This document shows positions 3,336 through 29,709 of a DNA stretch of 64,000 bases, piece by piece. The position numbers and the translations under genes are program-made. The first letter of the stretch is position 1, and every line of letters starts with the position of its first letter. Source of the DNA: Cytophagaceae bacterium (GTDB taxonomy: Bacteria; Bacteroidota; Bacteroidia; Cytophagales; Flexibacteraceae). The stretch is taken from assembly GCA_947458545.1 (NCBI GenBank), contig CANGYH010000001.1, positions 372,001 through 436,000 on the forward strand. The letters are read 5' to 3'. Below the pieces are notes generated by a model, which saw nothing but the letters and a program-made list of their open reading frames with translations, was not told the DNA's origin and ran no database searches.

Positions 3336-3538
3336 AACAGCTGCTCCTGATATGCGCTGCCTGGTTACTGACCACAGTAGCTTGGGCCCAAACGGATGAC
3401 GTACCCATGGCCGACCAACTCCGCGCAGACGGTAAAATTTGGGTTGTAGTGGTGTCGCTGGTGCTGATGCTGGCCGGATTTCTGTTTTACCTAATCAGGT
3501 TAGACGGCAAAATCTCTAAACTAGAGAACAACAAATAA
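3332..3538 (+). CDS. ccmD: CcmD-family small membrane protein
   Basis: A 68-aa protein starting at the ATG that overlaps the ccmC stop (ATGA). It has a cleavable-looking N-terminal signal (MKQLLLICAAWLLTTVAWAQ), then a linker, then one transmembrane helix (IWVVVVSLVLMLAGFLFYLI) followed by a short charged tail (RLDGKISKLENNK). That is the Bacteroidota form of CcmD, which stabilises the CcmABC complex and helps release holo-CcmE. The call rests on size, topology and position between ccmC and ccmE. Confidence 0.75.
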   Translation: MKQLLLICAAWLLTTVAWAQTDDVPMADQLRADGKIWVVVVSLVLMLAGFLFYLIRLDGKISKLENNK

Positions 3539-3540
3539 CC

Positions 3541-3981: not shown

Positions 3982-4005
3982 TCATCTCATAAGCTAACTA
4001 GCCAA

Positions 4006-4039
4006 AAAAGGCGCTATTCTTTGCAGAATAGCGCCTTTT
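4006..4039. terminator. bidirectional intrinsic terminator between ccmE and hppD
   Basis: A perfect 15-bp stem (AAAAGGCGCTATTCT and its complement) with a 4-nt loop TTGC lies between two convergent genes. Read either way it ends in a run of T, so it can stop both transcripts. On the minus strand the loop is GCAA, a GNRA tetraloop. Confidence 0.85.
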
Positions 4040-4059
4040 GCTTTGACACCAGCTAAAGG

Positions 4060-5157
4060 CTAAAGATTGCCACGGATGGCCTGCTCGGCCTCGATGGCCT
4101 CGAACAAGGCCTTGAAGTTGCCCTTGCCGAAGCTGGTAGCACCCGCGCGCTGGATAATCTCGTAGAATAGGGTAGGGCGGTCTTCCACCGGCTTGGTGAA
4201 AATTTGCAGCAGGTACCCCTCATCATCACGATCTACCAGGATGTTGAGGTCTTTTATCTTCTGGAAGTCTTCTTCAATGTGGCCGACACGAGCCGTCAGC
4301 GTTTCGTAATAAGCATCTGGCACACGCAGGAACTCTACACCACGGCGGCGCAGCTCCGATACGGTGTGGATAATATCCTTGGTAGCAAGGGCCACATGTT
4401 GCACACCGGCACCCTGATAAAACTCCAGGTATTCGTCGATCTGGCTCTTACGTTTGCCCTCGGCCGGCTCGTTGATGGGGAATTTGATGTAACCGTTCCC
4501 ATTGCTTACCACCTTAGACATTAAGGCAGAGTACTCGGTAGAGATGTCTTTGTCGTCAAAAGTGATCAGCAGCTTAAAGCCCATCACCTTTTCGTAAAAG
4601 TCCACCCACTGGTTCATCTGCCCCAGCTCCACATTGCCTACGCAGTGGTCAACATGCTCGATACCGATTGGGGTTACTTCTAAGGTAGAGTGTGCGGGTT
4701 TGAAACCTGGCAAAAACGCCCCTGTATAGTTCTTCCGCTCTACAAAGGTGTGCACCGTCTCACCGTAGGTCTGAATGGTGGCCATAACCACCGTACCAAA
4801 CTCGTCTTGCAGGGTGGTGGGCGCCAATACTGATTTGGCACCGCGGGCTAAAGTCTCGTAGTAGCTCTTTTCGGCATCATCTACCGTCACAGCCAGTACT
4901 TTGATGCCGTCGCCGTGCTTCTCTACATGCCGGCTGATCTCCGTACTGGGGTAAAGGCTGGTAGATAGCACCATGCGCATCTTACCCTGCTGCAGTACGT
5001 AGCTGGCAGTTTCCTTATGGCCGGTCTCTGGCCCACGGTAAGCAACCAGAGAAAAGCCAAAGGCCGACTGATAGAAGTAGGCCGCCTGCTTGGCATTGCC
5101 TACATAATACTCGATATGGTCGGTGCCCAAAAGAGGCAAAAAATCAGTGTTTTCCAT
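4060..5157 (-). CDS. hppD: 4-hydroxyphenylpyruvate dioxygenase
   Basis: A non-heme Fe(II) enzyme that turns 4-hydroxyphenylpyruvate plus O2 into homogentisate, the committed step of tyrosine breakdown. The 365-aa product has the two vicinal-oxygen-chelate halves: the N-terminal one opens GTDHIEYYVGNAKQAAYFY, the C-terminal catalytic one begins GIEHVDHCVGNV. The three iron ligands are visible: His in HVDHCVG, His in VQHVALATKDI, and Glu in the C-terminal LFYEIIQR, followed by the usual GNFKALFEAIE closing helix. It stands alone: the neighbours are a terminator and an unrelated lipoprotein, so homogentisate dioxygenase must be elsewhere. Confidence 0.96.
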   Translation of the reverse strand: MENTDFLPLLGTDHIEYYVGNAKQAAYFYQSAFGFSLVAYRGPETGHKETASYVLQQGKMRMVLSTSLYPSTEISRHVEKHGDGIKVLAVTVDDAEKSYYETLARGAKSVLAPTTLQDEFGTVVMATIQTYGETVHTFVERKNYTGAFLPGFKPAHSTLEVTPIGIEHVDHCVGNVELGQMNQWVDFYEKVMGFKLLITFDDKDISTEYSALMSKVVSNGNGYIKFPINEPAEGKRKSQIDEYLEFYQGAGVQHVALATKDIIHTVSELRRRGVEFLRVPDAYYETLTARVGHIEEDFQKIKDLNILVDRDDEGYLLQIFTKPVEDRPTLFYEIIQRAGATSFGKGNFKALFEAIEAEQAIRGNL

Positions 5158-5240
5158 GCAGTTATCCCAGATAGTGTGCTGTGCCTAAAACTACATCAGG
5201 CCAGACAAAGATGGCAACTAGAGCCCAGTCAGGCGTAGCC

Positions 5241-6131
5241 TTACCGGGTGATTCTTGTCAGTATTTCAGGCGGCAGCTCCTGCCTAAAAATGGAATGGTG
5301 TGAGGCGAGCCACTCCATCTTTTCCGGTGAAGCAATCAAGGCAGGGCTATTGGGCTCTACGTAGTTGCGTATGTATGTTCTTCTTGTCCCTATTGCGACG
5401 TCATATAAACAACCGAGAACGAAACCTAGCGCAGGAAATACAAGAAAGTTGCTGGCATACTGAATATTAACCGCTGCAGTGGGGAGGGGAGAGGTTCCAA
5501 TACCGAATAATCCACCTGCTACAGCAAATCCCAACCCTAGCCCTGTATAGCGGGCAATACGCCGATTATAGACTCGCAAGGTAATAATTTTAGAAATTGG
5601 AACAATTACTAGTTCCTTTGCCATTAACTCTGCGCGATAACCTATATCTAACTGATATAGACCTATGTACCCATTACGCACAAAAGCTAGCTCGCCGTAA
5701 TAGCTCGTATCTTGGGTTGACATCGTCACGTCTCTACCTGTTGATTCGTGGCGTACTAAAGGGATTTGGACTTTTATGAAGCGCATGTATCCCAATGATA
5801 ATCTTGAAGGGTCTAAGGCTAAAGCCTCATAATGTGCAATTAGCTTGTAAAACTCCCTTTGTTGCTCTACATTGGTTAAAACCCGCTTAGACAAGGTTTT
5901 ATAATGCCACTCAATGTAAAATGAGCCGGCCTCTGTCCCATATCTGAGCGAATCTGCGCTCGGCATATCTGCCGGCAGTAGCCCGAAATACCTCAGCTCG
6001 TAGGCATCCATAGAAGTGCCTACACGCATTTTAAATATGGCCTCGTCAGACTGGCCCCAGTAGGCCTGCTGCCCCAGGCAGCTCGTAACAATGCATACCG
6101 CTGCAATGGCAGCAGCAAAAACCTTCACCAT
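5241..6131 (-). CDS. putative lipoprotein of unknown function
   Basis: 296 aa that I do not recognise. The N-terminus (MVKVFAAAIAAVCIVTSCLG) is a signal peptide ending in a lipobox-like VTSC, so the mature protein would begin at the lipidated Cys18. The middle alternates polar and hydrophobic residues. Two hydrophobic stretches (about residues 195-215, YTGLGLGFAVAGGLFGIG, and 228-248, FLVFPALGFVLGCLYDVAIG) could be membrane helices or a glycine-rich hairpin. No catalytic motif is visible. The DNA is visibly more AT-rich than the genes on either side, which may mean a more recent arrival. It ends about 80 bp from the hppD start and could be transcribed with it. Confidence 0.6.
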   Translation of the reverse strand: MVKVFAAAIAAVCIVTSCLGQQAYWGQSDEAIFKMRVGTSMDAYELRYFGLLPADMPSADSLRYGTEAGSFYIEWHYKTLSKRVLTNVEQQREFYKLIAHYEALALDPSRLSLGYMRFIKVQIPLVRHESTGRDVTMSTQDTSYYGELAFVRNGYIGLYQLDIGYRAELMAKELVIVPISKIITLRVYNRRIARYTGLGLGFAVAGGLFGIGTSPLPTAAVNIQYASNFLVFPALGFVLGCLYDVAIGTRRTYIRNYVEPNSPALIASPEKMEWLASHHSIFRQELPPEILTRITR

Positions 6132-6184
6132 GTCGAGGCCAAAGTTCGCCCTTGTAACACCAAATACCAGTAGCGGTACCGGGT

Positions 6185-6436
6185 CTAGTTCTCAAACACG
6201 TTCTCGAAAAGGCTCAAATAATCGGTCAGCTTCTGCCGGATTTGGGCCGACGAGTTGAAGAAGTTGTCAAACTCTGCCTCTATGGCCTCCTTTTTCTTGC
6301 GGCGGTTACGATGGCTGTCGTCCTCGCGGATGGCATCGCGCATGGCCTGCCATTCGCGCATGTCTTGATCTAGTACAAAGAGCGTGGTAACGATGCGCTC
6401 TCGGGCCTGTTTCAGGCTAATGTAAGCGGGCTGCAT
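6185..6436 (-). CDS. small helical protein, paralogue of the adjacent upstream gene
   Basis: 83 aa from the ATG at 6436; a longer reading from 6466 adds MAWAPPIPTP. I prefer 6436 because the product then has exactly the length of its neighbour (6491-6742) and aligns with it without gaps. Shared residues: Y5, A11-R12-x-R14-I15, E28-W29, R33, E38-D39, A51, F56 and the final N83, about 14 identities in 83. The sequence is charged and predicted helical, with a basic patch (RNRRKKK) in the middle and no signal peptide or membrane helix. Function unknown. The pair looks like a tandem duplication that has diverged. Confidence 0.6.
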   Translation of the reverse strand: MQPAYISLKQARERIVTTLFVLDQDMREWQAMRDAIREDDSHRNRRKKKEAIEAEFDNFFNSSAQIRQKLTDYLSLFENVFEN

Positions 6437-6490
6437 AGGTGTGGGTATGGGCGGGGCCCATGCCATTACTTATTGGTTGGAGGAAGTGTC

Positions 6491-6742
6491 TCAATTGGGC
6501 TGAAAGTCAGCCATACTTTTTAGCGTAAGCCGATGCATCTCTAGCAGAAGCGTGCACTGATCAGGGTAGCTGTAAAATTGCCTGCGCATGGCATCCTCCA
6601 ATGGGTGGAAGTGTTGGCGCACAGGATCCTCAACATAGTCGGCCCGAATGCGAGCCCACTCAGTAAGGGTGTATTCAATGCGGGCCACATTGGCCTGAAT
6701 GCGATACCTGGCTTCCTGAAAAGTGCTGTATCCGACTTTCAT
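6491..6742 (-). CDS. small helical protein, paralogue of the adjacent downstream gene
   Basis: 83 aa, cytosolic by appearance, predicted mostly helical. Its AR.RI...EW...R....ED pattern is shared with the protein of 6185-6436. It is the first gene of the pair on the minus strand; a -7 element (TACTTTTG, 6750-6757) with a TTG 18 bp further upstream sits almost directly on the start codon, so the message would have a very short leader. I recognise no known domain. Size, tandem arrangement and absence of any export signal would fit a small regulatory or complex-forming protein, but nothing in the sequence says which. Confidence 0.6.
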   Translation of the reverse strand: MKVGYSTFQEARYRIQANVARIEYTLTEWARIRADYVEDPVRQHFHPLEDAMRRQFYSYPDQCTLLLEMHRLTLKSMADFQPN

Positions 6743-6749
6743 TGCGTTT

Positions 6750-6778
6750 CAAAAGTAGATACCTGCCTTCTGGTCCAA
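6750..6778 (-). promoter_or_regulatory. Bacteroidota promoter (TTG-N18-TACTTTTG)
   Basis: On the minus strand a TTG (6776-6778) is followed after 18 bp by TACTTTTG (6750-6757), close to the phylum consensus of TTTG, 19-21 bp, TAnnTTTG. It ends 7 bp before the ATG at 6742, implying an almost leaderless message. Confidence 0.55.
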
Positions 6779-6907
6779 TCTCAATTACGCCTACAAAGGG
6801 CAGGCATGAAAGGTTTGGCCCATTACTACAAAAAACGCCGCCCAACTATTCGCTGAATGCCTACCTTCAATTGTGCCATAATTTATATTATGTTAAATCA
6901 TGAACGG

Positions 6908-6940
6908 CAGTATAAGGCGACCTAGTGTCGCCTCATACTG
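6908..6940 (-). terminator. hairpin downstream of the TPR gene
   Basis: CAGTATAAGGCGAC pairs with GTCGCCTCATACTG (14 bp, one mismatch) around the loop CTAGT. It begins 10 bp past the stop of the TPR gene on the minus strand. No long T-run follows, so it is a candidate terminator or 3'-end stabiliser rather than a textbook one. The rest of the 6743-6949 gap holds only the promoter at 6750-6778. Confidence 0.5.
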
Positions 6941-6949
6941 AAAGCAGGC

Positions 6950-8110
6950 CTACTCTTTAATTTTATCGGCATCGGCCTTACGGCCAAGGCCCACATAAAC
7001 CCGCTTCAAGCTTTGGCGGATGGCTTTGTCGTCAGGTTGTAGGCTGTAAACTTTTTCGAAGTAAGGCAGCGCCTTGCTGTAGAGCTCTTTGGCTTGGGCT
7101 TCAAGCTTCTTGCCAGTCTTATTATACTCGTTCAAGGTCATGTTGTTGACCTTCTTGTTGATGGCCACCCCTTCGTTGTAGTAGTAAACGCCAAGGTTGA
7201 AGTTGGCATCTACGTTGTTCGGGTCTAGCTCCAGGGTTTTCTGGTAGTTGGCCATAGACTTTTGCTTCAGCTCTGCGCGCTCTGCCGCTGGGCGCTTGGC
7301 ATCTGCCGCAGCCTGGTCTTGCAGCGAGCCCAGTGTAGCATATAGGCTGGCGTTTTTAGGGTCCAGCTTGATGGCCTCCTCAATTTTGCTCTGGGCATCG
7401 GCCAGTTTGCCCTGTTGGCTGATCATGGCCAGCTCGTCTATAGCCAAAGTTTTGTCTTGCGGGAAAGCCTTGCGCCCTTCCTCAATAACCTTCATGGCCT
7501 CATCGTTTTTGCCAGCGCTGCGCTCGTAGCCCGCCAGCGTGCGGTACATCTCAGGCTTTTTATAGCCCATGGCAAACAGCTCGCGGTAGGCCTGTTTTAC
7601 GCGGTCAAAATTTTGGGCTGCTTCTGCCGCATAAGCGGTGTAGAGTATGGTGGTGGTGTCGCCCGGCTTGATTTGCCCGGCCAGGTCGTAGCTGGCCACG
7701 GCCTCGGCATATTGCTTGTTCTGGTACTTAAGCACTCCATCGTTAAACGCCATACCCCAGAGGTTGTCTATGTCGTTTTTGCTGCTCTTGTAGTACTCGC
7801 CTTTCTTGGTATCAAGCTCCATTGCCTTTTTGTACGAAGTGTAAGCCTCGCCCAAGGCATTGCTAGACAGTGCCTTATAGGCAGGCAGCGGAGAGTTGGC
7901 TATGTCTCGATAGATCAACCCACGGAAGTACCACGTCTTGGCTTCTGCCTTTGTTTTGTCGTTGGTAATGGCCTTGTCAATCTCTTCTTTAGCCTTATCA
8001 AGCTTGCCGTCCTTGTGGTTGATGAAGGCATTGGTAACGGCTACCCCTTGCGCACCGGCGTAGGTGCCGGTCAAAAGCAAGAAGCTGCCCATCAATATCA
8101 GATTTTTCAT
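6950..8110 (-). CDS. exported tetratricopeptide-repeat protein
   Basis: 386 aa with an N-terminal signal peptide (MKNLILMGSFLLLTGTYAGAQ) and then a chain of TPR units from about residue 25 to the end. Clear repeats include AEAKTWYFRGLIYRDIA, YAEAVASYDLAGQIKPGD, AMKVIEEGRKAFPQD, ALYATLGSLQDQ-like and PNNVDANFNLGVYYYNEG. The protein is Lys-rich and would be a periplasmic scaffold; TPR units bind protein partners, but none can be named from the sequence. A frame open to 8149 would add 13 residues, but that stretch contains the -7 element at 8147-8154, so the start is the ATG at 8110. It lies downstream of gyrA, separated by a terminator. Confidence 0.85.
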   Translation of the reverse strand: MKNLILMGSFLLLTGTYAGAQGVAVTNAFINHKDGKLDKAKEEIDKAITNDKTKAEAKTWYFRGLIYRDIANSPLPAYKALSSNALGEAYTSYKKAMELDTKKGEYYKSSKNDIDNLWGMAFNDGVLKYQNKQYAEAVASYDLAGQIKPGDTTTILYTAYAAEAAQNFDRVKQAYRELFAMGYKKPEMYRTLAGYERSAGKNDEAMKVIEEGRKAFPQDKTLAIDELAMISQQGKLADAQSKIEEAIKLDPKNASLYATLGSLQDQAAADAKRPAAERAELKQKSMANYQKTLELDPNNVDANFNLGVYYYNEGVAINKKVNNMTLNEYNKTGKKLEAQAKELYSKALPYFEKVYSLQPDDKAIRQSLKRVYVGLGRKADADKIKE

Positions 8111-8146
8111 ACGCTGTGATGCTGCGATGTTTGGAGGTTCTACGCT

Positions 8147-8154
8147 CAAAAATA
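8147..8154 (-). promoter_or_regulatory. -7 element of the TPR gene (TATTTTTG)
   Basis: On the minus strand TATTTTTG, a strict TAnnTTTG match, lies 36 bp upstream of the ATG at 8110. The same bases are part of the T-rich tail of the gyrA terminator, so one short stretch appears to end one gene and start the next. Confidence 0.5.
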
Positions 8155-8158
8155 AAAA

Positions 8159-8200
8159 GCGGCGCAGGGTTGGCTTAACAAAGCTCCTACCCTACGCCGC
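8159..8200 (-). terminator. gyrA intrinsic terminator
   Basis: On the minus strand GCGGCGTAGGGTAGG pairs with CCAACCCTGCGCCGC (two mismatch or wobble positions) around a loop of about 12 nt, followed by TTTTTATTTTTG. It starts about 20 bp past the gyrA stop. Confidence 0.75.
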
Positions 8201-8221
8201 CGTGAAATTACAGGCTAATCC

Positions 8222-10780
8222 TTATTCAGCCGATGTTTCATCGGGCGCATCCTGCGCACCGGTGTCGTTGTCGGGGGCGTCGGGCAAGGTCGGGCTCTCC
8301 CCTACCTCTTTTTCCGCATCGGGGTCTGCCTTGATGATGGCCACTGACGATATCGAGTCGCCTTCGTTGATACGAATCAGCCGCACGCCTTGAGTATTCC
8401 GCCCAACCACGCGCAGGTCTTCAAGTCCCATCCGGATAGAAATGCCCGACTTGTTGATAATCATGATTTCATCCGTAGCCTCTACGGATAGGATGCCCAC
8501 CAACGAGCCTGTCTTTTCTGTAACGTTCAGGGTTTTTACGCCCTTACCGCCGCGGTTGATAACTGGGTAATCTTCTAGAGAAGACTTCTTGCCATAACCA
8601 TTCTCGCTCACAACCAGCAGGTTGTGGCTGGTATCTTGTGGCGACACCGTAACAACGCCCACCACAGAGTCGTCTGCACCCTCTAGCGTTACGCCGCGTA
8701 CACCGGTGGCCGTACGGCCCATGGGCCGTACCTGGTCTTCGGCAAATCGCACGGCTTTGCCTGATCGCTTGGCTAGTATGATGTCGCAATTGCCATCGGT
8801 CAGCTTCACATCTAGCAGTCGGTCGCCATCGTTGATGTTGAGGGCAATCAAGCCCGCTTGCCTGGGGCGGCTGAATGCCTCAAGGCTCGTTTTCTTGATA
8901 ACGCCTTGTTGCGTAACCATCACGATGTAGTGGTTATCAACATAGTCTGGGTCTTTCAGCGTAGGTACGTTCAAGATTGCGCGTACCTTATCGCCCGGCT
9001 CCACCTGGATCACGTTTTGGATGGGGCGCCCCTTGCTGATGCGGCTTCCTTCTGGCAGGCTATACACCTTCTGCCAATACATACGTCCGCTCTCCATGAA
9101 GATGAGCAAGAAATTATGCATCGAGGCAATAAAGAGGTGCTCCGTAAAGTCATCTTCTTTTGTTGTGGCGGCCCGGCTGCCTACGCCTCCCCTGCCCTGG
9201 GTGCGGTACTCTGCCAGCGGCGTACGCTTAACGTAGCCCAGGTGGCTTACCGTGATCACCATATCCTCGTCTTCTATCAGATCTTCAATATCGATATCGT
9301 CAGAGGCATGCACAATCTGCGTACGGCGCTCATCGCCGTAGCGGTCTTTCATTTCTTGCAGCTCGGCCTTGATGATGCCCATTCGGCGCTCTAGGCTACC
9401 GAGGATATCTTTCAGGTCGGTGATGATTTCCATCAACTGCCGATATTCTTCCTGAATCTTCTCGCGCTCCAGGCCTGTCAACCGCTGCAGGCGCATATCT
9501 AATATCGCCTTAGACTGCACCTCCGAGAGACCAAATCGGCTCATCAGGCCTGTTTTGGCCTCTTCAGGGTCGCGGCTGGCCCTGATTAGCGCAATTACCT
9601 CGTCGAGGTGATCCAGGGCAATGAGCAATCCTTCCAGGATGTGGGCCCGCTTTTCGGCTTCGGCCAAATCAAACTCTGTGCGGCGTACAACCACCTCATG
9701 GCGGTGCTCCACAAAGTGCTTGATCAGATCTTTCAGGTTAAGCGTGTATGGGCGCCCTCCTACCAGGGCCACGTTGTTCACGCTAAAGCTGCTTTGCAGA
9801 GCTGTCTTCTTGTACAGATTGGCTACCACAACCTGAGCACTGGCCTCCTTCTTGAGGTCGAACACAATGCGAATGCCTTCCCGGTCAGACTCATCACGTA
9901 TGTCTGAGATTCCCTCAAGCTCCTTGCTGTTGATGAGTTCTCCGATATACTCCACCATCTTGGCCTTGTTGACCATGTAGGGCACATCAGTAAAGACCAC
10001 ACGCTCTCGGTTGCCACTCATCTCCTCTATTTGGTAGGTAGAGCGGATTACCAGGCGCCCACGGCCATGCTCAAAGCTGGAGCGGATGCCTTGCATGCCG
10101 TAAATGGTAGCGCCTGTTGGGAAGTCAGGCCCCTTTACGTACTGCATCAACTCGGCAATGGTTATGTCATGGTTGTCTATGTAGGCATGGATGGCATCTA
10201 CAATTTCGCGCAGATTGTGCGGAGCCATGTTGGTGGCCATACCTACGGCAATGCCGCTTGTGCCATTTACGAGCAGGTTCGGAAACTTAGCCGGCAGTAC
10301 GGTAGGCTCCTCCAACGAGTCGTCGAAGTTGGGCTGGAAGGCTACCGTATTCTTGTTGATGTCCGTCAACAACTCCTCGGCTATACGGCGTAAACGGGCC
10401 TCGGTATAACGCATGGCCGCCGGCGAGTCTTGGTCAATGGAGCCAAAATTGCCCTGCCCATCTACCAGCGGATAGCGCAGAGACCATTCCTGAGCCATGC
10501 GCACCATCGCATCGTAAACGCTGGAGTCTCCGTGCGGGTGGTATTTGCCCAGGCACTCCCCTACGATACGGGCCGACTTTTTGTAAGCCCTGTTGTAGCC
10601 CAGGCCAAGCTCGTCCATGGCATAGAGCACTCGCCGGTGCACGGGCTTGAGGCCGTCACGCACGTCGGGCAGGGCCCGGCTTACGATAACCGACATCGAA
10701 TAGTCGATGTAGGCACCCCGCATCTCATCCTCGATGTTGATGGGGATGATGTTGGGGCTGGTAGGGAAAGTATCTTCCAT
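8222..10780 (-). CDS. gyrA: DNA gyrase subunit A
   Basis: 852 aa, the breakage-reunion subunit of the A2B2 type II topoisomerase that adds negative supercoils. The N-terminus ([39 protein letters not shown]) and the winged-helix domain are canonical. The catalytic tyrosine is Y125 in [10 protein letters not shown]. The quinolone region reads [10 protein letters not shown], with Ser86, Ser87 and Asp90 at the places of E. coli Ser83, Ala84 and Asp87, so the usual resistance changes are absent. The GyrA box in the C-terminal beta-pinwheel is QGRGGVG near residue 543, marking this as gyrase rather than ParC. It ends with an acidic, disordered tail of about 40 residues. gyrB is not in the window. 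Confidence 0.97.
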
Positions 10781-21659: not shown

Positions 21660-22622
21660 TTAAAGGTTAAACGTCTTTTCTATCTGATAGTCGTTTTTGC
21701 GAATATTGCCTTGGCTGATCATCTCGCCTAAGAACCCTGCCAGAAACATCTGAAACCCAATCACAGTGGCCGTCAGTGCCAGAAAGAACAACGGCTGCTC
21801 TGTCACTTCGCGCACACGTACGTTCTGGAAGCCAGCCACAAACTTTTCTACGCTCAGGTATCCGGTTATCGAAAGGCCAATCAAAAACAGCAAGGTGCCT
21901 ATGGAGCCAAAAAAGTGCATAGGCCGCTTCTTGTACTTGGATACAAAAACGATTGACATCAGGTCTAAAAAGCCGAATACAAACCGCTCTAGGCCAAACT
22001 TAGTAACCCCGTACTTGCGGGCCCGGTGTTCCACAACCTTTTCGCCTATCTTACTAAAGCCGTTCCATTTGGCAATCAAGGGGATGTAGCGGTGCATCTC
22101 ACCATACACTACAATAGACTTGACCACCTTGCTGCGGTAGGCCTTCAGCCCACAATTGAAATCGTGCAGCTTAATGCCCGAGACAGCCTGCGTAACTCTG
22201 TTGAAGAGTTTGCTTGGCACCGTCTTGCTGATCGGATCGTAGCGATTTTTCTTCCAGCCTGATACCAGATCGTAGCCTTGCCCTTCAATCATGGCAAATA
22301 GGCCCGGTATCTCGTCCGGGCTATCCTGCAGGTCGGCGTCCATCGTAATTACGACTCTGCCGTTGCAGCGCTCGAAGCCTACTTGCAAGGCTGCACTCTT
22401 GCCATAGTTCTTCTGGAAGGATACCACTTTGACGTTTGGATCGACGGCAGCCAGGCGGCTTAAAACGTCCAAGCTGCCATCCGTAGAGCCGTCGTTTACA
22501 AACAGTATCTCATAACTGTAACCGGCCTTGGCTACCACCCTTGTTATCCACTCGTGCAGCTCAGGCAAAGACTCTTCTTCGTTGAAGAGCGGCACCACGA
22601 CCGAAAGGTCATTCGTTGTCAT
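21660..22622 (-). CDS. family 2 glycosyltransferase, polyprenyl-phosphate type, with membrane anchor
   Basis: 320 aa. The N-terminal GT-A domain has LSVVVPLFNEEESLPELHEW, LFVNDGSTDGS, and the metal-binding MDADLQDSPDEI. FNRVTQAVSGIKLHDFNCGLKAYRSKV is the segment typical of DPM1/GtrB-like enzymes that move a sugar from a nucleotide to polyprenyl phosphate. Two C-terminal transmembrane helices (HFFGSIGTLLFLIGLSITGYL and FFLALTATVIGFQMFLAGFLGEM) anchor it to the inner membrane. It is the last gene of the fur-led run, 17 bp after the four-helix membrane protein, so its lipid-linked sugar may serve an envelope glycan with the cytidylyltransferase and deacetylase upstream. Confidence 0.88.
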   Translation of the reverse strand: MTTNDLSVVVPLFNEEESLPELHEWITRVVAKAGYSYEILFVNDGSTDGSLDVLSRLAAVDPNVKVVSFQKNYGKSAALQVGFERCNGRVVITMDADLQDSPDEIPGLFAMIEGQGYDLVSGWKKNRYDPISKTVPSKLFNRVTQAVSGIKLHDFNCGLKAYRSKVVKSIVVYGEMHRYIPLIAKWNGFSKIGEKVVEHRARKYGVTKFGLERFVFGFLDLMSIVFVSKYKKRPMHFFGSIGTLLFLIGLSITGYLSVEKFVAGFQNVRVREVTEQPLFFLALTATVIGFQMFLAGFLGEMISQGNIRKNDYQIEKTFNL

Positions 22623-22639
22623 AGGTCAAAAGTAGCAGA

Positions 22640-23092
22640 CTAGGCAGCAGGCCTCGATTTTGGAGAAAAAAGCCTGGCCAGCCCCAGTGTAACCAGCATC
22701 AAAACAAAAACAGGCGTTAGCCGAGCCAGCGAGATATCAATCAGCGTGGCGGCTAAGCTCATGTTGGGGAACATGGCCGCAAATCGGGTTGCTATTAGCT
22801 CAAATGGCGTCAGCACGAAAACGGCCGCAAGCCCTACGGCCTGCAGTAAGATGAAAAATGTGGTGCCCAAAAAGATTGGCCTTGCCCCAAGCTGGCGCGT
22901 ATTGAAAAGATAGGCATAAAACCCCAACAAGAAGAAGATAGGGTAAATCACGTCGGCATTGAGCTGCCCGAGTGGTACGTCTGCACTTGCCAACACCACT
23001 ACGTCAAACAAACCAGTACTTACTCCCGCCAGCAACCCAAACAGGCAAGCAAATGCTTCCATACGTTTTGGCAACTTAAACATTGGCTGCAA
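22640..23092 (-). CDS. four-helix membrane protein, DUF4199-like
   Basis: 150 aa, or 147 from the second ATG at 23083. Four hydrophobic helices: AFACLFGLLAGVSTGLFDVVVL, VIYPIFFLLGFYAYLF, IFLGTTFFILLQAVGLAAVFVL, and LTPVFVLMLVTLGLARLF. Size and topology resemble the DUF4199 proteins that often sit next to glycosyltransferases in Bacteroidota, but I cannot confirm the family by eye. The start overlaps the end of the dihydroorotase-like gene by 17 bp, so it is translationally coupled. Function unknown. Confidence 0.65.
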   Translation of the reverse strand: MQPMFKLPKRMEAFACLFGLLAGVSTGLFDVVVLASADVPLGQLNADVIYPIFFLLGFYAYLFNTRQLGARPIFLGTTFFILLQAVGLAAVFVLTPFELIATRFAAMFPNMSLAATLIDISLARLTPVFVLMLVTLGLARLFSPKSRPAA

Positions 23093-23918
23093 TGGCGGCT
23101 GGTTGGCTCACCGTTAGTTGCTTAAATCTATCTGGGCCAACAGCATCGGCCACTCTTTTAGCAATACCGGCATACATGGGGGCAATATTCACCCCTGCAG
23201 GCGCGCTAAGCGGGTCTAGCTCGGCGTTGTCTGTCCAGGCATGATGGTGGCTTGTCAGCGCATCTATGGCGCCAGATGCTGCCAAATCAAGCATCACGGC
23301 GCGGATGCCAGCATCTACCAAACCTGGTACGGGCCTACCCTCGAGCTCGTAGCCCATTGGGTCTAGCCCAGCATCAAGCACATACATTGGCACACTGGTA
23401 GAAAGTGCCTCGGCAGCGCGGTAGGGCTGCAGAATCGCCAGCTCTTGTGGTGTAGATATACCGTACACGTGGGTGCGGCAACCATAATAGCGGGCCTCTT
23501 TAGCCACAAACTCCAGCAGACTTTCGGCTAGGTGGAAAGGAGCCTCTCGGTGGCCGCCTCGGGCAGCTAACAAGGGGCTGGCCGTGGCAGCTTCAGCCAT
23601 TGGGCTTTGTAAGAGTAGCGTTGCCCCGATGTCAGCACATTTGGCTAGTAAGGCCGAGAGCTGCCCTGGTTTGTGCAGAATCGAAGACCTATACGTTACA
23701 AAGGATATTGCATTCAGATCAACGTCTGCCCGGCCCAGGCTACGGGCGTCTATGGCAAACTGAAAGGCATCAACCTTATCTGTAATCTGCCCTTGCGCTT
23801 CTGTAAGATGGACTATACCGCCTTGCCAACCCAGATCGATCAAAGCCCTCAGCCTTGCTGCCAAGAGGTTTTGTGGCTCATCAAACCCTGCCGAAAGAAA
23901 CAATCCGATATCAATCAT
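23076..23918 (-). CDS. dihydroorotase-like amidohydrolase, metal site degenerate
   Basis: 280 aa from the ATG at 23918, which overlaps the stop of the BatA-domain gene (ATGA). The layout of a multifunctional-type dihydroorotase can be followed: HREAPFHLAESLLEFVAKEARYYGCRTHVYGISTPQELAIL matches the AE..a..R...La...g.rlHi.HvSt helix-strand, and IDALTSHHHAWTDNAELDPLSAPAGVN matches the DHaPH......F..AP.G loop. But the N-terminal H-x-H metal pair is gone (DIGLFLSAGFDEP) and the carbamylated Lys region is not recognisable. It is therefore probably not a working pyrimidine enzyme; a binding or regulatory role in the operon is more likely. An upstream frame to 23993 only duplicates the end of the previous gene. 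Confidence 0.72.
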   Translation of the reverse strand: MIDIGLFLSAGFDEPQNLLAARLRALIDLGWQGGIVHLTEAQGQITDKVDAFQFAIDARSLGRADVDLNAISFVTYRSSILHKPGQLSALLAKCADIGATLLLQSPMAEAATASPLLAARGGHREAPFHLAESLLEFVAKEARYYGCRTHVYGISTPQELAILQPYRAAEALSTSVPMYVLDAGLDPMGYELEGRPVPGLVDAGIRAVMLDLAASGAIDALTSHHHAWTDNAELDPLSAPAGVNIAPMYAGIAKRVADAVGPDRFKQLTVSQPAAIAANV

Positions 23919-25462
23919 GCCCTGGGCCTGAAGCGCTGCGTTAGCATCAACGCCTCCACGCCTACAAAGGTAGCAATCAAGATAAACACCCATACCAATG
24001 GGCTGTTTGTGCCCTTGGTGGCTGTTTGCGTCTGTAAGTAGGCCACCGCTGCTTTAGGCTTCACGCCCTTTATCTGATTCACAGCCAACGTAATAACCTG
24101 CCCTTGCCGATAGAGCGCATAGATGCCAGGCAGCATAATGCGGTCAATGTTTTTGCGCAGGTACGGCTGGGCAATGCCGGCCACATACTTTATGCTGTCT
24201 GCTTGGGCTGTAAGCTCTGCAAGGCTTGCTTTAGAGGCACCGTCGCCCAGGTCAAAAAAGCTTACCTTGCGGCTAGAGGCAACCTCTTTGGCCAGGCTGT
24301 AAAGAACAGGCAGAAAGAGGTCAGTCTGAGGTAGATTGGTTGCACCAGTAAGCAGGTCTGCATGGACGAAAAGCACCTTATTACCCAAAGAAGATGGTAG
24401 CAACGACACCAGAGGTTTGCCCTCGCTAGCATAGATAAGCGGCACACTGTAGCCAGCAAGTCTGTAGGAGTTGCGCCCAACTATGGCAGGCAGGTCTGGC
24501 TGGGAACTGGCCGTAAACGCATAACGAAGTGCAGCCAGATCTATCTGGTCAAAAGTGTCAGCTTTTGTGGCCACTTCCGCATCAACCTGGGCCGCTACAC
24601 CCAGCAGCGCTAGGTCTTTGGTGGCTTGCTGGGCAGATGTTGGCAGGTAAACCACTGCCTTACCCTTGACGGCCGCCTCAAACCCAATGGCTCCAACCCA
24701 CATACTGGCCTCGGCTGGCGTGGTTACCTTTTTGAAAATGGCCGGGTTAAAGGCCGCCCCTATGGCATTGGCCCGTGCTGCCAGGTAAACCGCCGGCTGC
24801 TCCACTTGCTGGGCAAAGTAGAACGTCCGGTCTGCAACTTTAAGCACACTTGTAGCCTCCCGGGCCAGGCCTAAGGGTTGTTCCCTGTCGTTGGGGGTAA
24901 GCAGTTTGCCATTCAGCTCCACCTGCTCGGCCTCAGTCTCTAAAACAAAAGATGTATCAGACGCACGCTCCAGCCCAATGCCTGTACCCTGCAACAGGGT
25001 AATGCTGTCAATCGCCAAACCACCGGGAGCCTTTACCCGATTGGCAAGTTCTGCCTCGCGCACAAGAGTAAGCTCTGAGAATACAGCTTTTAGCGACGGG
25101 TCTGCCGTTACAACTCGGGCACCACCTTGGCTGCCCGCTCCACTACGGTGTAGCAAACTATCTACTTGCTGCAACACCGATTCAGATAAATAAGGTAAGG
25201 CCGGAATCAGCACCGTGGCAGACTCAGCTTGCTCATCTTTCTGGGCATAGGCCGCAATAAAGGCAGTTAGCGTAGCTACCATACCGAGCCGCATGGCCAG
25301 CAGCAACCAATGCCTTAGGTTGCGCACCACCCGGTTCTCTTTGGTAATGCGCTCTACCACATGCAGCTGGTTGAAAACCTGCCGCTTAAATCGTGCAAGA
25401 TTCAGCAGATGCAACACCACCAAACCCGCCATGCCGGCCGCCCCCAGTATCCAGATGATCAT
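23915..25462 (-). CDS. BatA N-terminal-domain membrane protein
   Basis: 515 aa. The N-terminus is the aerotolerance (BatA) domain: helix IIWILGAAGMAGLVVLHLLNLARFKRQVFNQLHVVERITKEN, basic loop, then helix HWLLLAMRLGMVATLTAFIAAYAQ. A long extracytoplasmic region follows (about 75-480) with alpha/beta character and no metal-ion-dependent adhesion site visible, then a final helix (PLVWVFILIATFVGVEALML) and a short basic tail. Members of this family lie in Bacteroidota next to a dihydroorotase-like gene, as here. Start and stop overlap both neighbours by 4 bp (ATGA), so it is a core member of the operon. Function not established. Confidence 0.78.
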   Translation of the reverse strand: MIIWILGAAGMAGLVVLHLLNLARFKRQVFNQLHVVERITKENRVVRNLRHWLLLAMRLGMVATLTAFIAAYAQKDEQAESATVLIPALPYLSESVLQQVDSLLHRSGAGSQGGARVVTADPSLKAVFSELTLVREAELANRVKAPGGLAIDSITLLQGTGIGLERASDTSFVLETEAEQVELNGKLLTPNDREQPLGLAREATSVLKVADRTFYFAQQVEQPAVYLAARANAIGAAFNPAIFKKVTTPAEASMWVGAIGFEAAVKGKAVVYLPTSAQQATKDLALLGVAAQVDAEVATKADTFDQIDLAALRYAFTASSQPDLPAIVGRNSYRLAGYSVPLIYASEGKPLVSLLPSSLGNKVLFVHADLLTGATNLPQTDLFLPVLYSLAKEVASSRKVSFFDLGDGASKASLAELTAQADSIKYVAGIAQPYLRKNIDRIMLPGIYALYRQGQVITLAVNQIKGVKPKAAVAYLQTQTATKGTNSPLVWVFILIATFVGVEALMLTQRFRPRA

Positions 25463-26085
25463 ATGCTAAACGCCAACTTTCGGCAAGTAAACGCCTCGGC
25501 AAAGTTGGTATTTGCTTGCACGCCTCTTAGCCTGCCTAAAGCCTCAAAAGTTCCAGGCGTGTACCAGGCCTTTGATTGTTGGCAGGCAAAGTGGCCCATC
25601 AGGTGGGCTACCTTGCTTGCCATCTCGGCTTCTGCAAGGGGCACAAATACATTGGGCTGTACGGTATCTACATCGTACTTGGGTATTTCGTACTCCCAGA
25701 TAGGGCAATTTCTAAATAGGTTGTAGGCTAAGCTGCCCAGCAAGGCGTGATCTTGGTGGTGATCGGCCTTGTGGTGTACTAGCACCAAATCATAAGCCTG
25801 GCCATTGGTAAAGCCCCTGATGGCTGCCTTTATCTCCGCCGCATAGCTTGGGAATAGCCCGTCTGTGAACGAAAGGTGCCCTGTCCTGCCCTTCCATCCC
25901 CATGCCGCAAAGCTAGCCGCTTGTTCTTGCTTGCGCTCATCGCTGCCAGAGAGGATGAGCCCATCTACCTGGGTACCTCTGCTCATCAGCTTAGAGAGCG
26001 TGCCGAAGCACCCAATCTCCAAGTCATCGGCATGAGCGCCGAGCGCAAGAACACGGCCAAACGCCGGCAGCTGGAGTTGTTGCAT
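25459..26085 (-). CDS. PIG-L/LmbE family deacetylase
   Basis: 208 aa. The zinc motif reads AHADDLEIG (His18, Asp20, Asp21), a slight variant of AHPDDxE, with the downstream ligand motif in LVHHKADHHQDHALLG. Members remove N-acetyl groups from sugars such as GlcNAc-linked lipids or metabolites. Other residues (SGSDERKQEQAASFAAWGW, IWEYEIPKYD) match the sugar-nucleotide-associated PIG-L group. It shares one base with the stop of the cytidylyltransferase gene and overlaps the BatA gene by 4 bp, which suggests the substrate is built by the same pathway. Confidence 0.87.
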   Translation of the reverse strand: MQQLQLPAFGRVLALGAHADDLEIGCFGTLSKLMSRGTQVDGLILSGSDERKQEQAASFAAWGWKGRTGHLSFTDGLFPSYAAEIKAAIRGFTNGQAYDLVLVHHKADHHQDHALLGSLAYNLFRNCPIWEYEIPKYDVDTVQPNVFVPLAEAEMASKVAHLMGHFACQQSKAWYTPGTFEALGRLRGVQANTNFAEAFTCRKLAFSI

Positions 26086-26867
26086 TACTTAGTAGACCAG
26101 ACCTCCCAAGGCTTGTGGCCTTTGGAGATCATGTCGTCAAAAACTTGTTTGTCCTTAAAGGTATCCATGGCTAGCCAAAAGCCCCCATGTGGATAGGCCA
26201 GCAACTGCTTCTGAGCAATTAACCGTTGGAAGGGCTGCTCTACCAACTCCTCCCCCTCTTGGATGTAATCAAAGACGTCGTATTTGAAGATAAAGAACCC
26301 ACAGTTGATGCTGTAACCACTACTTGAGATTGGCGAAATAGACGAGACGTAATGGTCCTTATCGTCATAGCGCACCACATGGAAGCTCTGCGTGGATTTG
26401 TAAGCCATGAAAGCGCCAATCACGCCTTCTCGCTCAAACTGCGCCAAGTGATCATCTAGCGGAAGGTCCGTCAGGCCATCAGAATAGTTGGCCATGAATG
26501 GCTCGCCGGGCGTCAAGTACTTTTTAGCCTTGAGCAAGCGTTGGCCAATGTTGGAGTTTATGCCAGAATCTACGAAGGTGATGGTCCAATCTTCGATGTC
26601 TTTGTTTACCAGGGTCAGCGTTCTTCCCCCATCCGCCAAAATAAAGTCGTTGCTTAGGTGCTCCTGATAGCTTAAAAAATAGTCCTTTATCACGTCTGCC
26701 TTGTGGCCTAGGCACAAAATGAAGTCCTTATGACCATATGAGGCATAATACTTCATCAGGTTCCAAAGGATTGGGCGGTACCCAATAGGGATCATGGGTT
26801 TGGGTACTGCATCGCTATAGTCGCGGATGCGCATGCCCTGCCCTCCGCAAAAAAGTACAACCTTCAT
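26085..26867 (-). CDS. glucose-1-phosphate cytidylyltransferase-like nucleotidyltransferase
   Basis: 260 aa, close to the RfbF length. It begins MKVVLFCGGQGMRIRDYSDA, the nucleotide-binding G-G-x-G-x-R loop, then VPKPMIPIGYRPILWNLMKYYASYGHKDFILCLGHKADVIKDYF, the RfbF-type signature. ANYSDGLTD carries the Asp that binds metal and sugar phosphate, SINCGFFIFKYDVFDYI and HGGFWLAMDTFKDKQVFD end the fold. The expected reaction is CTP plus a hexose-1-phosphate to CDP-hexose; the sugar is not certain. No CDP-glucose dehydratase is next to it. It lies 23 bp after the 110-aa membrane protein gene. Confidence 0.85.
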   Translation of the reverse strand: MKVVLFCGGQGMRIRDYSDAVPKPMIPIGYRPILWNLMKYYASYGHKDFILCLGHKADVIKDYFLSYQEHLSNDFILADGGRTLTLVNKDIEDWTITFVDSGINSNIGQRLLKAKKYLTPGEPFMANYSDGLTDLPLDDHLAQFEREGVIGAFMAYKSTQSFHVVRYDDKDHYVSSISPISSSGYSINCGFFIFKYDVFDYIQEGEELVEQPFQRLIAQKQLLAYPHGGFWLAMDTFKDKQVFDDMISKGHKPWEVWSTK

Positions 26868-26890
26868 CTATGGCGCAAATAAGTGTGGGG

Positions 26891-27223
26891 CTAGGTTAGG
26901 TACGCAGCATCCACAGTTTTAATGCTATGAATGTAATATACCAAGAAAATATCTATCGCCGCTAATGTTACGATAAATACCCACAGCAGCGCCTTCCGCT
27001 TGCCCAGAGGGATGTGTTTCTGCCTTTTGAGCCCGCCAGACACATAAGAGCCATAAAACAGGATAAGCGCAGCCAGCACCAAGGCTACCAAGGCCAGATG
27101 ATAATCTCCTTCGGCAAGGCCTACATCAGGCCGGGCCGGGTTAGGCGCGTTTTTTATGAGCAGGTACGCAATGTAAATCTTTGGCAGCAGCAGCGCGTGC
27201 AGCAGTAACCGAAGTGGTCTCAT
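26891..27223 (-). CDS. small membrane protein of unknown function
   Basis: 110 aa with three hydrophobic segments: LLLHALLLPKIYIAYLLI, YHLALVALVLAALILFYGSYV, and ALLWVFIVTLAAIDIFLVYYI. A basic cytosolic loop (KRQKHIPLGKRK) separates the last two. The start codon shares one base with the stop of the outer-membrane protein gene (TGATG), so it is translationally coupled. I do not recognise a family. Confidence 0.65.
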   Translation of the reverse strand: MRPLRLLLHALLLPKIYIAYLLIKNAPNPARPDVGLAEGDYHLALVALVLAALILFYGSYVSGGLKRQKHIPLGKRKALLWVFIVTLAAIDIFLVYYIHSIKTVDAAYLT

Positions 27224-28845
27224 CAGAATTTGAGTGTGGCTCCAAACACAGCCATAATGCCTCTTTGGCGGTAGCCGTAAAACAGATAAGGCTTGTTGTT
27301 GGCCAGATTGTAAAGGTCCAGATTCACATCCAGCCGCTTTGATATCACATAGCTCGCTTTAAGGCTCAGGTCGGCGACGATACCACTTTTGACGGTCGTC
27401 AGCCGGGGCGTCAACAAGTCGTAGCTGCTCATTACCACCAATGCTGGCGATACGGAAAAGCCCCCTTGCCCAAACGTAGGTGCCAAACGCCACGTAAGCA
27501 ACGGCACATTGGGTATCTCGGTTCTAAACGACGAATTGGCGGCCTGTATTTGCAACCCCGTCTCGGCACTAATCAGATCATTGAAGCGGTAGTTAGCGCT
27601 GATCTGCAAGTAAGTGAGAGTAACGGCGGTATCTCTCAGGTTTAAGGCCATCATGCGTGCACTGTCGTTGCGTATGGGTGCCCATAGTAGATAATTCTTA
27701 AACTGCTTTAAGCCTCCAGATACCTCCATTTGATACTTGGTCTTGGCAACCCGTACCCCTACCCCAATGGCCAAAGGCATGTTGGTATAGCTAAACTGGC
27801 TAATGTTGCCCAACCATGGATTCACCTTGGCTTGATTAAAAAACAGGTTCTGGCTATAGCCACTGTTAACGCCACCAAATAAGGTTGTAGCCTCGCTCAA
27901 GGCAAAGCTTGCATCAAGGCCAGGATATAGGTGCACGTTCTTTTTGTCGATGCTATCGTTTTCTGCCAGAACGGTCAGGCTGGGTTTCAACGTTAGCCCA
28001 CCAAAGGTGCGCGTTAGGCTTCCCCCAACATCTAAGAAGGCTACGTTGCGAGACACCTGGCTGCTAATCTTATTGATGGCCAGGTTGCTGCTTAGCCCCA
28101 GTACACCCGCGTCGCCAAGAGACAAGCTGTAATTGCCCGATAGCTGGGCAAAATAGCTGCGCTGGTCTGCAAAGCTGGTAATAGCATTGGCGGCCAACCC
28201 AAGGTCTAGCTTGTATTTGTTGGCTTTCTCGGTTTGGTAAGCTGCTCTAAAACCAGTACGCAGGTTTGATATCCGGATGTCTCCCTTCTCTGCACTGGAA
28301 GGTATGAAGGCATAAAGGGTATTCCGGTTATTTTCCACCACCAAATCTGCACTTAGCCTGCCGCCCAAAGCTTTATACGTACCGAAGGTGTGCAACTGGT
28401 TGACGCCAGAAGCCATCCACCGCTCAGAGCCCAGCGCGCTGTTGAGGTGCAACACCTTAGCGGCAATGTAATCGTCTTTGGAGCCGTGGCTGTAAAAACC
28501 CTCTAGGTGTGTGGTCAAATAGTTGCCCAGGCCCAGTTTTAGGTAATTAGGCCTTAGGCCTTCATCGCTTGGTGCCGCATAATTCAATACCCTAGGCTTA
28601 AGATCTAAGACGTTGGTAGGTTTAGCCAGCCCCGTGCTTACGGCGCTGAAGTCGCGCCTAACAGTGTCTTGCCTCAACGACTGGAGGCGGTTGGTTTGGG
28701 GCTTCTCTTCGATCGGCAGAATGATCTCTTTGCTTTTCTCGAATACGATTTGGATATCGTCAATATTCTTTGGATTTTGTTGTGCTACCACTACGCCAGG
28801 TAGGCAAGTCATGGAGGCAAGGAGCAGGCAGAGCCATCTATTCAT
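27223..28845 (-). CDS. outer-membrane beta-barrel protein (TonB-receptor-like barrel without plug)
   Basis: 540 aa. A signal peptide (MNRWLCLLLASMTCLPGVVVAQ) leads a short linker with an acidic and Pro-rich stretch. From about residue 95 the sequence is a long series of amphipathic strands with alternating aromatics, ending in a YGYRQRGIMAVFGATLKF strand with terminal Phe, as in outer-membrane barrels. The strand pattern resembles TonB-dependent receptor barrels, but there is no plug domain. It overlaps the STAS gene by 8 bp. Placed with fur and glycan genes, it may act in envelope assembly or transport; the substrate is unknown. Confidence 0.75.
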   Translation of the reverse strand: MNRWLCLLLASMTCLPGVVVAQQNPKNIDDIQIVFEKSKEIILPIEEKPQTNRLQSLRQDTVRRDFSAVSTGLAKPTNVLDLKPRVLNYAAPSDEGLRPNYLKLGLGNYLTTHLEGFYSHGSKDDYIAAKVLHLNSALGSERWMASGVNQLHTFGTYKALGGRLSADLVVENNRNTLYAFIPSSAEKGDIRISNLRTGFRAAYQTEKANKYKLDLGLAANAITSFADQRSYFAQLSGNYSLSLGDAGVLGLSSNLAINKISSQVSRNVAFLDVGGSLTRTFGGLTLKPSLTVLAENDSIDKKNVHLYPGLDASFALSEATTLFGGVNSGYSQNLFFNQAKVNPWLGNISQFSYTNMPLAIGVGVRVAKTKYQMEVSGGLKQFKNYLLWAPIRNDSARMMALNLRDTAVTLTYLQISANYRFNDLISAETGLQIQAANSSFRTEIPNVPLLTWRLAPTFGQGGFSVSPALVVMSSYDLLTPRLTTVKSGIVADLSLKASYVISKRLDVNLDLYNLANNKPYLFYGYRQRGIMAVFGATLKF

Positions 28846-29152
28846 AAGAAAAAATACCTTTAAGCTTTGTAAGGTCTAGCAAGTTGAAAACAGGAGGATT
28901 AACGCCCTTAAGCACCAGAGACGAGCCTGCAATGATGCTCTTGGTATGGAGCTTCACCAACAAGGCCAGCCCGGCACTGCTAACGTAGTTTACCTCGCGC
29001 AAGTGTAGTGTAAGCCGAACCGCACCTTCTGCCACAGCGTCAAAGATGGCGTTTTCGATTTCTCTGACTACGTCTTCACCCACAAGGTTCACGTGAATGA
29101 ACACGTCAAACTCTTTGGCAACTGCCGATACGATGTCAATCTTGCTTTTCAT
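28838..29152 (-). CDS. STAS-domain protein (anti-sigma-factor-antagonist type)
   Basis: 104 aa from the ATG at 29152, a whole STAS domain and nothing else. The order is strand, FIHVNLVGEDVVREIENAIFDAVAEG helix, VRLTLHLREVNYVSSAGLALLVKLHTKS, VLKGVNPPVFNLLDLTKLKGIF. The usual phosphorylatable Ser region (often DSSGL) reads VSSAGL: the serine is kept, the preceding Asp is replaced. Such proteins bind anti-sigma kinases or act as phospho-switches; no kinase or phosphatase gene is near. It overlaps fur by 17 bp and the outer-membrane gene by 8 bp. A frame open to 29173 adds only seven residues. Confidence 0.8.
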   Translation of the reverse strand: MKSKIDIVSAVAKEFDVFIHVNLVGEDVVREIENAIFDAVAEGAVRLTLHLREVNYVSSAGLALLVKLHTKSIIAGSSLVLKGVNPPVFNLLDLTKLKGIFSYE

Positions 29153-29609
29153 GCGCGGCAGTCTTATGGACACAGGCTGTCTGCGTGCAGTGCCCGTAGA
29201 AAATGAGGCTGTGGTTGGTTATCTGATACTTAAGCAGCTCTTCAACCTTGTTTTGAATATTACCCAGGCGCGGATCGCAGAACTCTGTAATCTTACGACA
29301 ATCCAGGCAAACGAGATGGTCGTGCTGGCGGTAGCCGATGGCTTTCTCGTACAATGCAACGTTGGATCCAAACTGATGCTTTACTACCAGTCCGCTTTCT
29401 TCTAACAGCCCCAGGGTGTTATACACGGTGGCCCGGCTAACGCGGCTGTTCTTTTCCTTCAGGATCTCATAGAGCGTTTCTGCGTCAAAGTGCTCGCCGC
29501 TGTCGTAAATCTCATCCAGAATGGTGAAACGCTCTTGCGTCTTGCGGTAGTTCTGTTTGGCCAAGAAAGCCAAAAAAACCTTGCGCGCCTCTTCTTTGGA
29601 TTGGTGCAT
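29136..29609 (-). CDS. fur: Fur family transcriptional regulator
   Basis: 157 aa. The N-terminal winged helix includes RKTQERFTILDEIYDSGEHFDAETLYEILKEKNSRVSRATVYNTLGLLEESGLV. The dimerisation and metal part shows YRQHDHLVCLDCRKITEF with the CxxC of the structural zinc site and HCTQTACVH near the end. It senses iron, zinc or peroxide (which is not clear from the sequence) and represses transcription when metal-bound. It is the first gene of the minus-strand run that reaches to 21660 and overlaps the STAS gene. Its own -7 element is at 29643-29650. Note the second Fur-family gene at 58762. Confidence 0.9.
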   Translation of the reverse strand: MHQSKEEARKVFLAFLAKQNYRKTQERFTILDEIYDSGEHFDAETLYEILKEKNSRVSRATVYNTLGLLEESGLVVKHQFGSNVALYEKAIGYRQHDHLVCLDCRKITEFCDPRLGNIQNKVEELLKYQITNHSLIFYGHCTQTACVHKTAAHEKQD

Positions 29610-29642
29610 GTGCTGCTGCCTGGCCGGCTACTATCCGGAAGT

Positions 29643-29650
29643 CAAAGATA
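29643..29650 (-). promoter_or_regulatory. -7 element of the fur operon (TATCTTTG)
   Basis: On the minus strand TATCTTTG, a strict TAnnTTTG match, 33 bp before the fur start. It drives the whole ten-gene run if no internal promoter exists. It lies back to back with the parE promoter. Confidence 0.55.
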
Positions 29651-29683
29651 GAGGGGCTCCTGCATAACGCTTGATGACCTATT

Positions 29684-29692
29684 TACATTTGC
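29684..29692 (+). promoter_or_regulatory. -7 element of parE (TACATTTGC)
   Basis: TACATTTGC matches the extended TAnnTTTGC consensus 17 bp before the chosen parE start at 29710. It lies inside the longer open frame that begins at 29671, which argues against that start. Confidence 0.6.
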
Positions 29693-29709
29693 AAGCTGTT
29701 AAAGTGGGT

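Follow-up and report, generated by a model that had tools for sequence, protein, structure and literature searches.

In a 64,000-nucleotide stretch of a Cytophagaceae bacterium genome (GenBank assembly GCA_947458545.1, contig CANGYH010000001.1, positions 372,001 to 436,000; here called the window), ten genes line up on the minus strand at 21660-29609, beginning with fur and ending with the gene for a GT2 glycosyltransferase. We propose with good confidence that this run is a composite operon specific to its lineage, an old frame in which the interior genes differ from those of relatives or derive from elsewhere. The evidence comes from locus L121 in genome G020, which belongs to another family (G and L denote genomes and loci of our comparison set). 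There, fur, STAS, purA, a thioredoxin-like gene, BatA, a dihydroorotase-like gene, DUF4199 and GT2 follow each other on one strand within 7.8 kb (1169-8989); purA, the thioredoxin-like gene, STAS, FUR and BatA were confirmed by Pfam. The window keeps both ends of this row, and the order and strand of the outer genes are alike. The positions of purA and the thioredoxin-like gene are taken by genes for a barrel protein, an orphan membrane protein, a nucleotidyltransferase and a PIG-L deacetylase. Up to six of the ten genes are shared with L121, namely fur, STAS, BatA, the dihydroorotase-like gene, GT2 and, by position, a four-helix membrane protein. This pattern suggests that the operon may keep its ends across families while its interior differs.

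Organization of the ten-gene run

The run and its upstream region are composed as follows (aa, amino acids).

29136-29609, minus: fur, Fur-family metalloregulator, 157 aa, first gene of the run (PF01475)
28838-29152, minus: STAS-domain protein, ATG start at 29152, GTG alternative at 29173 (PF01740, PF13466)
27223-28845, minus: outer-membrane beta-barrel-like protein, 540 aa, barrel nature and signal peptide predicted from sequence
26891-27223, minus: small three-helix membrane protein, an orphan present only in its own genome (1 of 59)
26085-26867, minus: sugar-1-phosphate nucleotidyltransferase, related to glucose-1-phosphate cytidylyltransferase (PF00483)
25459-26085, minus: PIG-L family deacetylase, diverged (PF02585)
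23915-25462, minus: BatA-domain membrane protein, 515 aa, reduced, DxSxS motif absent (PF07584)
23076-23918, minus: truncated dihydroorotase-like putative pseudoenzyme, 280 aa (relatives' profile, hhalign)
22640-23092, minus: four-helix membrane protein, occupying the place of DUF4199 (by position only)
21660-22622, minus: GT2 polyprenyl-phosphate-type glycosyltransferase with two C-terminal helices (PF00535)
29610-29706: divergent intergenic region of about 97 bp with a -7 element (TAnnTTTG) on each strand, at 29650 (minus) and 29684 (plus) (pattern scan)

A first-pass annotation, made from the sequence alone, had described ten tightly packed genes led by fur on one strand, and the coordinates bear out this arrangement and its order. 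From fur to GT2, the joints measure -17, -8, -1, +23, -1, -4, -4, -17 to +1, and +17 bp, values that rest on the chosen starts (ATG 29152 for STAS, ATG 23918 for the dihydroorotase-like gene, 23092 or 23083 for the four-helix protein). All nine joints allow a start within -20 to +25 bp of the upstream stop; outside the run, this is true of 13 of the 28 joints between same-strand genes. Both counts come from a crude gene call covering the entire window, with the best start picked identically everywhere. The FUR, STAS, NTP_transferase, PIG-L, BatA and GT2 proteins of the run exceeded their Pfam cut-offs; in the Pfam and NCBIfam searches, the barrel, the small membrane protein and the four-helix protein gave no hit over cut-off in curated families.

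The outer frame in relatives

The comparison set comprised 58 relatives and the window's own genome (3.23 Mb, 9 contigs), 59 genomes in total. A GT2 orthologue with 51-69% identity occurred in 54 of the 58 relatives, and GT2 loci were taken from 40 of these 54 genomes; some, not all, of the 14 left out had it on short contigs. DUF4199 was located at most 300 bp upstream of GT2 in 25 of the 40 loci, a dihydroorotase-like gene at most 1.3 kb away on the same strand in 15, and BatA lay upstream of GT2 in 15. Nine loci combine the three. L109 has a further dihydroorotase-like gene downstream of GT2, outside the count of 15.

The upstream end of the frame is rarer. fur accompanied by purA on the strand of GT2 was found in 4/40 loci (L108, L121, L133 and L134), with fur, purA, the dihydroorotase-like gene and GT2 contiguous in L133; in L116, fur lies on the opposite strand. 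STAS occurred in two of the 40 loci. In both L108 and L121, as in the window, fur and STAS are neighbors that share a strand and precede the GT2 block; the window differs from this fur-STAS-purA block in that it lacks purA and has other genes in that place. None of the 40 loci carried the barrel, PIG-L or nucleotidyltransferase gene, even when profiles built from relatives were included, and the small membrane protein gave no BLAST match at these loci.

A core block with a putative pseudoenzyme

The GT2 protein scored 111.3 bits against PF00535 (cut-off 23.3) and is closest in sequence to ArnC structures (9hwj, E 2.3e-44), in agreement with the first-pass assignment to the polyprenyl-phosphate type. 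A true ArnC equivalog, that is, an undecaprenyl-phosphate Ara4FN transferase, was rejected as an identity (171.8 bits, cut-off 529). The window resembles the GT2-DUF4199 pair of Bacteroidota in that a GT2 of the ArnC-like type adjoins a small membrane protein with several helices; it differs in that this membrane protein shows no detectable sequence similarity to DUF4199. PG0311-PG0312 of Porphyromonas gingivalis is given as GT2 plus DUF4199 and was 1.5-fold upregulated in iron depletion (P 0.026; PMC10434189). The pair is distant and is likened to the window by that listing and not by sequence; the change is a weak hint of an iron response.

The BatA protein passed PF07584 (32.3 bits, cut-off 25.9) and was recognized by the relatives' profile (E 2.9e-20), but is only 515 aa long versus about 670-690 aa in the relatives. 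All six aligned BatA proteins of relatives have a DxSxS motif, which we presume to be of the vWA type and which is missing from the window protein; Pfam vWA did not match in three relatives' BatA proteins.

The first-pass label of a dihydroorotase-like protein stands in part. Profiles of relatives do match, weakly, with an hhalign probability of 85.5% over 95 columns, but the family to which they point appears to be one of pseudoenzymes, and the window copy is reduced further. It has no Pfam match, its best NCBIfam match (E 9.4e-4) stays far under cut-off, and TIGR00857 gave 13.1 bits where 279.05 would be needed. Gaps fall on the HxH columns and most of the N-terminal part is gone; a true dihydroorotase (PyrC) was rejected, since the HxH metal motif is absent. 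Folding the truncated protein alone gave a mean pLDDT of 34 and was uninformative. The motif is incomplete in the relatives as well: none of the 15 GT2-linked proteins (L097, L098, L099, L103, L107, L112, L115, L118, L120, L121, L124, L129, L133, L134 and L135) has both histidines, and L098 and L103 keep one of the two. By this motif, the GT2-linked proteins classify as a pseudoenzyme family.

Many of the genomes, a number not counted, carry a further gene of the PyrC type (about 450 aa), and the window's own genome has a full-length one at C1:669315-670553. In its product, the metal motif has Q and H instead of the usual two histidines, so that activity of this copy is not certain. A comparable situation is described for Pseudomonas, whose transcarbamoylase requires an inactive dihydroorotase (PMC7053772). 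The class A2 aspartate transcarbamoylase system shares with the present family a dihydroorotase homologue without metal motif and a PyrC-type gene elsewhere in the genome; it differs in that the family described here is tied to GT2, BatA and fur. In G003, G004 and G029, the dihydroorotase-type and BatA genes are neighbors on one contig and GT2 is on another; in other genomes, for example G034, G037 and G049, the two genes lie apart. We infer that BatA and dihydroorotase-type proteins act together.

The interior genes and their neighborhoods in relatives

The nucleotidyltransferase of the window scored 28.8 bits against PF00483 (cut-off 21.2), and its closest solved structure by sequence is 1tzf. 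A true RfbF (glucose-1-phosphate cytidylyltransferase, TIGR02623) was rejected, as the 196.7 bits stay below the equivalog cut-off of 300.25. Only two of the 58 relatives possess an orthologue (G014, 63%; G021, 55%), in both cases followed by a PIG-L orthologue (42-46%); the remaining relatives gave matches of at most 39% or fragmentary ones.

Outside this set, the best 80 of at least 578 relatives in named genomes were used (L184-L263). Their loci span Bacteroidota, Nitrospirota, Cyanobacteria, Acidobacteria, Proteobacteria, Planctomycetes, Chloroflexi, Gemmatimonadetes and others, phyla which we assigned from the titles and in part presume. A PIG-L gene was found on the same strand, no more than 300 bp away, in 68 of these best 80 loci and elsewhere in the locus in six; it was not seen in six. 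Frequent companions were a C-methyltransferase (at least 47 loci), an RmlC-like epimerase (at least 47), DUF4910 (at least 39) and an SDR (at least 34), counts that are lower bounds because fewer than 18 kb were available for 39 of the 80 loci. In the stored flanks of the best 80 loci, neither fur, STAS, BatA, the dihydroorotase-like gene, the barrel nor DUF4199 was found. The nucleotidyltransferase-PIG-L pair is a widespread sugar cassette; term searches of an open library found no paper on it.

The first-pass annotation had named a nucleotidyltransferase and a PIG-L deacetylase. The comparison bears out a nucleotidyltransferase with conserved sites and a PIG-L protein with its metal-site residues: the former differs from the 80 relatives at just 2 of 71 near-invariant columns, and the latter (PF02585, 42.6 bits, cut-off 28.2) keeps H18, D20, D21, H110 and H113, which we take to be the metal-site residues, as do all 74 relatives. 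At another place in the own genome, an SDR with 63% identity to that of the cassette is found next to a second nucleotidyltransferase. The genome also encodes a C-methyltransferase (50%), around which 19 kb contain no other cassette gene. Because these relatives sit elsewhere, the cassette may be dispersed in this genome.

Barrel homologues, mostly at 22-28% identity, are present in 46 of the 59 genomes including the own. We kept 20 loci, one from the own genome and 19 from others, with flanks of about 1.5 kb. The gene that follows the barrel encodes an HU-CCDC81 domain over cut-off in 11 of 11 scanned loci out of these 19, together with SPOR in ten. HU-CCDC81_bac_2, the domain usually encoded beside the barrel, gave no match in the own genome, but this short model passes its cut-off in just 1 of the 14 genomes used as controls. 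fur precedes the barrel in four of the nine same-family loci (L165, L176, L177 and L178), in none of the other five, and in none of the ten loci from other families. These four are all the loci fetched from genus g3, so the adjacency of fur and barrel is common to one other genus. The barrel profile had no sequence match in PDB. The small three-helix membrane protein had no relative in the 58 genomes. As a side observation, the loci L161-L178 encode a conserved barrel-like protein of about 560 aa, with TPR and ExbB-like genes nearby in several (ExbB assigned by eye).

A proposed course of events and function

For the composite operon, we envisage an ancestral row that would have read approximately fur-STAS-purA...BatA-(pseudo)dihydroorotase-DUF4199-GT2. 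The row of the present lineage contains neither purA nor its neighbor; the barrel, the orphan and the nucleotidyltransferase-PIG-L pair lie in between, the genes of this pair presumably derived from the separate, widespread sugar cassette. A main promoter before fur would drive a polycistron, and Fur may regulate its own expression. GT2 would load a sugar onto polyprenyl phosphate, and the adjacent four-helix protein may aid in flipping the loaded lipid. BatA and the pseudo-dihydroorotase could form a membrane-anchored, non-catalytic partner pair, which would be reduced here.

Evidence against the composite operon and alternative explanations

Several observations weigh against the composite operon. 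The full frame was found in one genome only (L121) and no same-genus genome was among those compared, so the order of events proposed above is tentative. Contig ends truncate several of the 40 GT2 loci, and absences there are weak. purA is absent among the ten genes of the run by open reading frame list and Pfam, the rest of the own genome not having been searched for it. Two members of the core are also poorly matched: the dihydroorotase-like protein reached only E 3.8e-5 (12 bits) against the relatives' profile, and the four-helix protein is equated with DUF4199 (PF13858) because of its position only, with no Pfam match and an hhalign probability of 0.4%. In the window PIG-L, 11 of the 47 columns that are near-invariant among 74 relatives are changed and 36 kept, compared to 0 and 1 changed in G014 and G021. 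By these substitutions, the window protein appears to be under altered or relaxed constraint, and being so unusually diverged it may no longer do the cassette's job. Finally, a pattern scan found promoter-like -33/-7 pairs inside the run at 27501 and 23998, because of which the run may not be one transcript.

These internal pairs also speak for an alternative that we consider unlikely: that the close packing reflects a stretch with few spacers, in which unrelated units under several promoters came to be stacked neutrally. The close joints found elsewhere in the window and the reduced state of parts of the core would fit such a history. It does not account well for the fact that every one of the nine joints is close, or for an outer frame whose order and strand are also kept in another family. 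Scans for transcription signals do not favor it either, with fewer sigma-70 sites than in shuffled sequences (5 vs 7.1) and no clear excess of terminator-like sites (14 vs 9.5, sd 3.1). As these counts are near or below the shuffled ones, neither scan settles the transcript question; a single polycistronic transcript from fur to GT2 is plausible.

A quite unlikely explanation is that the nucleotidyltransferase and PIG-L stem from an undescribed multi-phylum nucleotide-sugar pathway (for a de-acetylated, perhaps C-methylated CDP-sugar), part of which would here have come under Fur control, with an altered PIG-L, inside an old operon where pseudo-dihydroorotase and BatA serve GT2 as a non-catalytic scaffold. 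The window does have the same two adjacent genes as the cassette, with the putative metal-site residues kept; it differs in holding just these two cassette genes, the PIG-L diverged and relatives of others elsewhere in the genome.

According to the first-pass annotation, all ten genes could make, de-acetylate and deliver a lipid-linked sugar, a claim that was to fall if related genomes kept only pairs of them together. The relatives examined keep sub-blocks, never all ten. These are fur-STAS(-purA), BatA-dihydroorotase-DUF4199-GT2, the pair of fur and barrel, seen in one other genus, and the nucleotidyltransferase-PIG-L pair, which occurs as part of unrelated sugar clusters. This largely undoes the claim, although L121 holds up to six of the ten and thus more than pairs. 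Since an old row with a foreign middle is what relatives suggest, the run is probably not one new sugar pathway; one lipid-linked sugar pathway from all ten genes is possible but unsupported. Its integrated, Fur-controlled form, with the nucleotidyltransferase making an NDP-sugar, PIG-L de-acetylating it, GT2 loading it onto polyprenyl phosphate, the four-helix protein flipping and the barrel exporting it, would agree with the very tight packing, the conserved nucleotidyltransferase and PIG-L sites, the ArnC-like GT2 and the iron response of the P. gingivalis pair (PMC10434189), but is very improbable given that the blocks sit apart in the other genomes examined, that GT2 is so much more widespread among the relatives than the nucleotidyltransferase orthologue (54/58 vs two) and that PIG-L is diverged.

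The composite operon thus calls for caution, as a packed gene run is not necessarily one pathway. It also offers two leads. One is the widespread and poorly characterized nucleotidyltransferase-PIG-L sugar cassette; the other is the conserved block of GT2, DUF4199, pseudo-dihydroorotase and BatA, in which the dihydroorotase-like protein is without the full metal motif across the relatives examined.

fur, STAS and the surroundings of the run

The STAS protein passed both PF01740 (32.6 bits) and PF13466 (31.0 bits). fur scored 105.3 bits against PF01475 (cut-off 23.1), and its product stays below the cut-offs of the Fur, PerR, Irr and Zur equivalog models (best 95.8 of 146 bits). A role of fur and STAS as sensors for the enzymes, as put forward by the first-pass annotation, found nothing in its support.

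The fur side of the run is flanked by a divergent GyrB/ParE-type gene, whose start at 29707, chosen by us, sets the far edge of the intergenic region; tRNA-Leu, tig and clpP lie at the other end. The names GyrB/ParE, tig and clpP are those which we take these sequences to represent, and the TAnnTTTG elements are presumably of the Bacteroidota type. fur is one of two FUR matches in the own genome. A second FUR-domain match within the window is located at 58825-59118 on the plus strand (41.1 bits).

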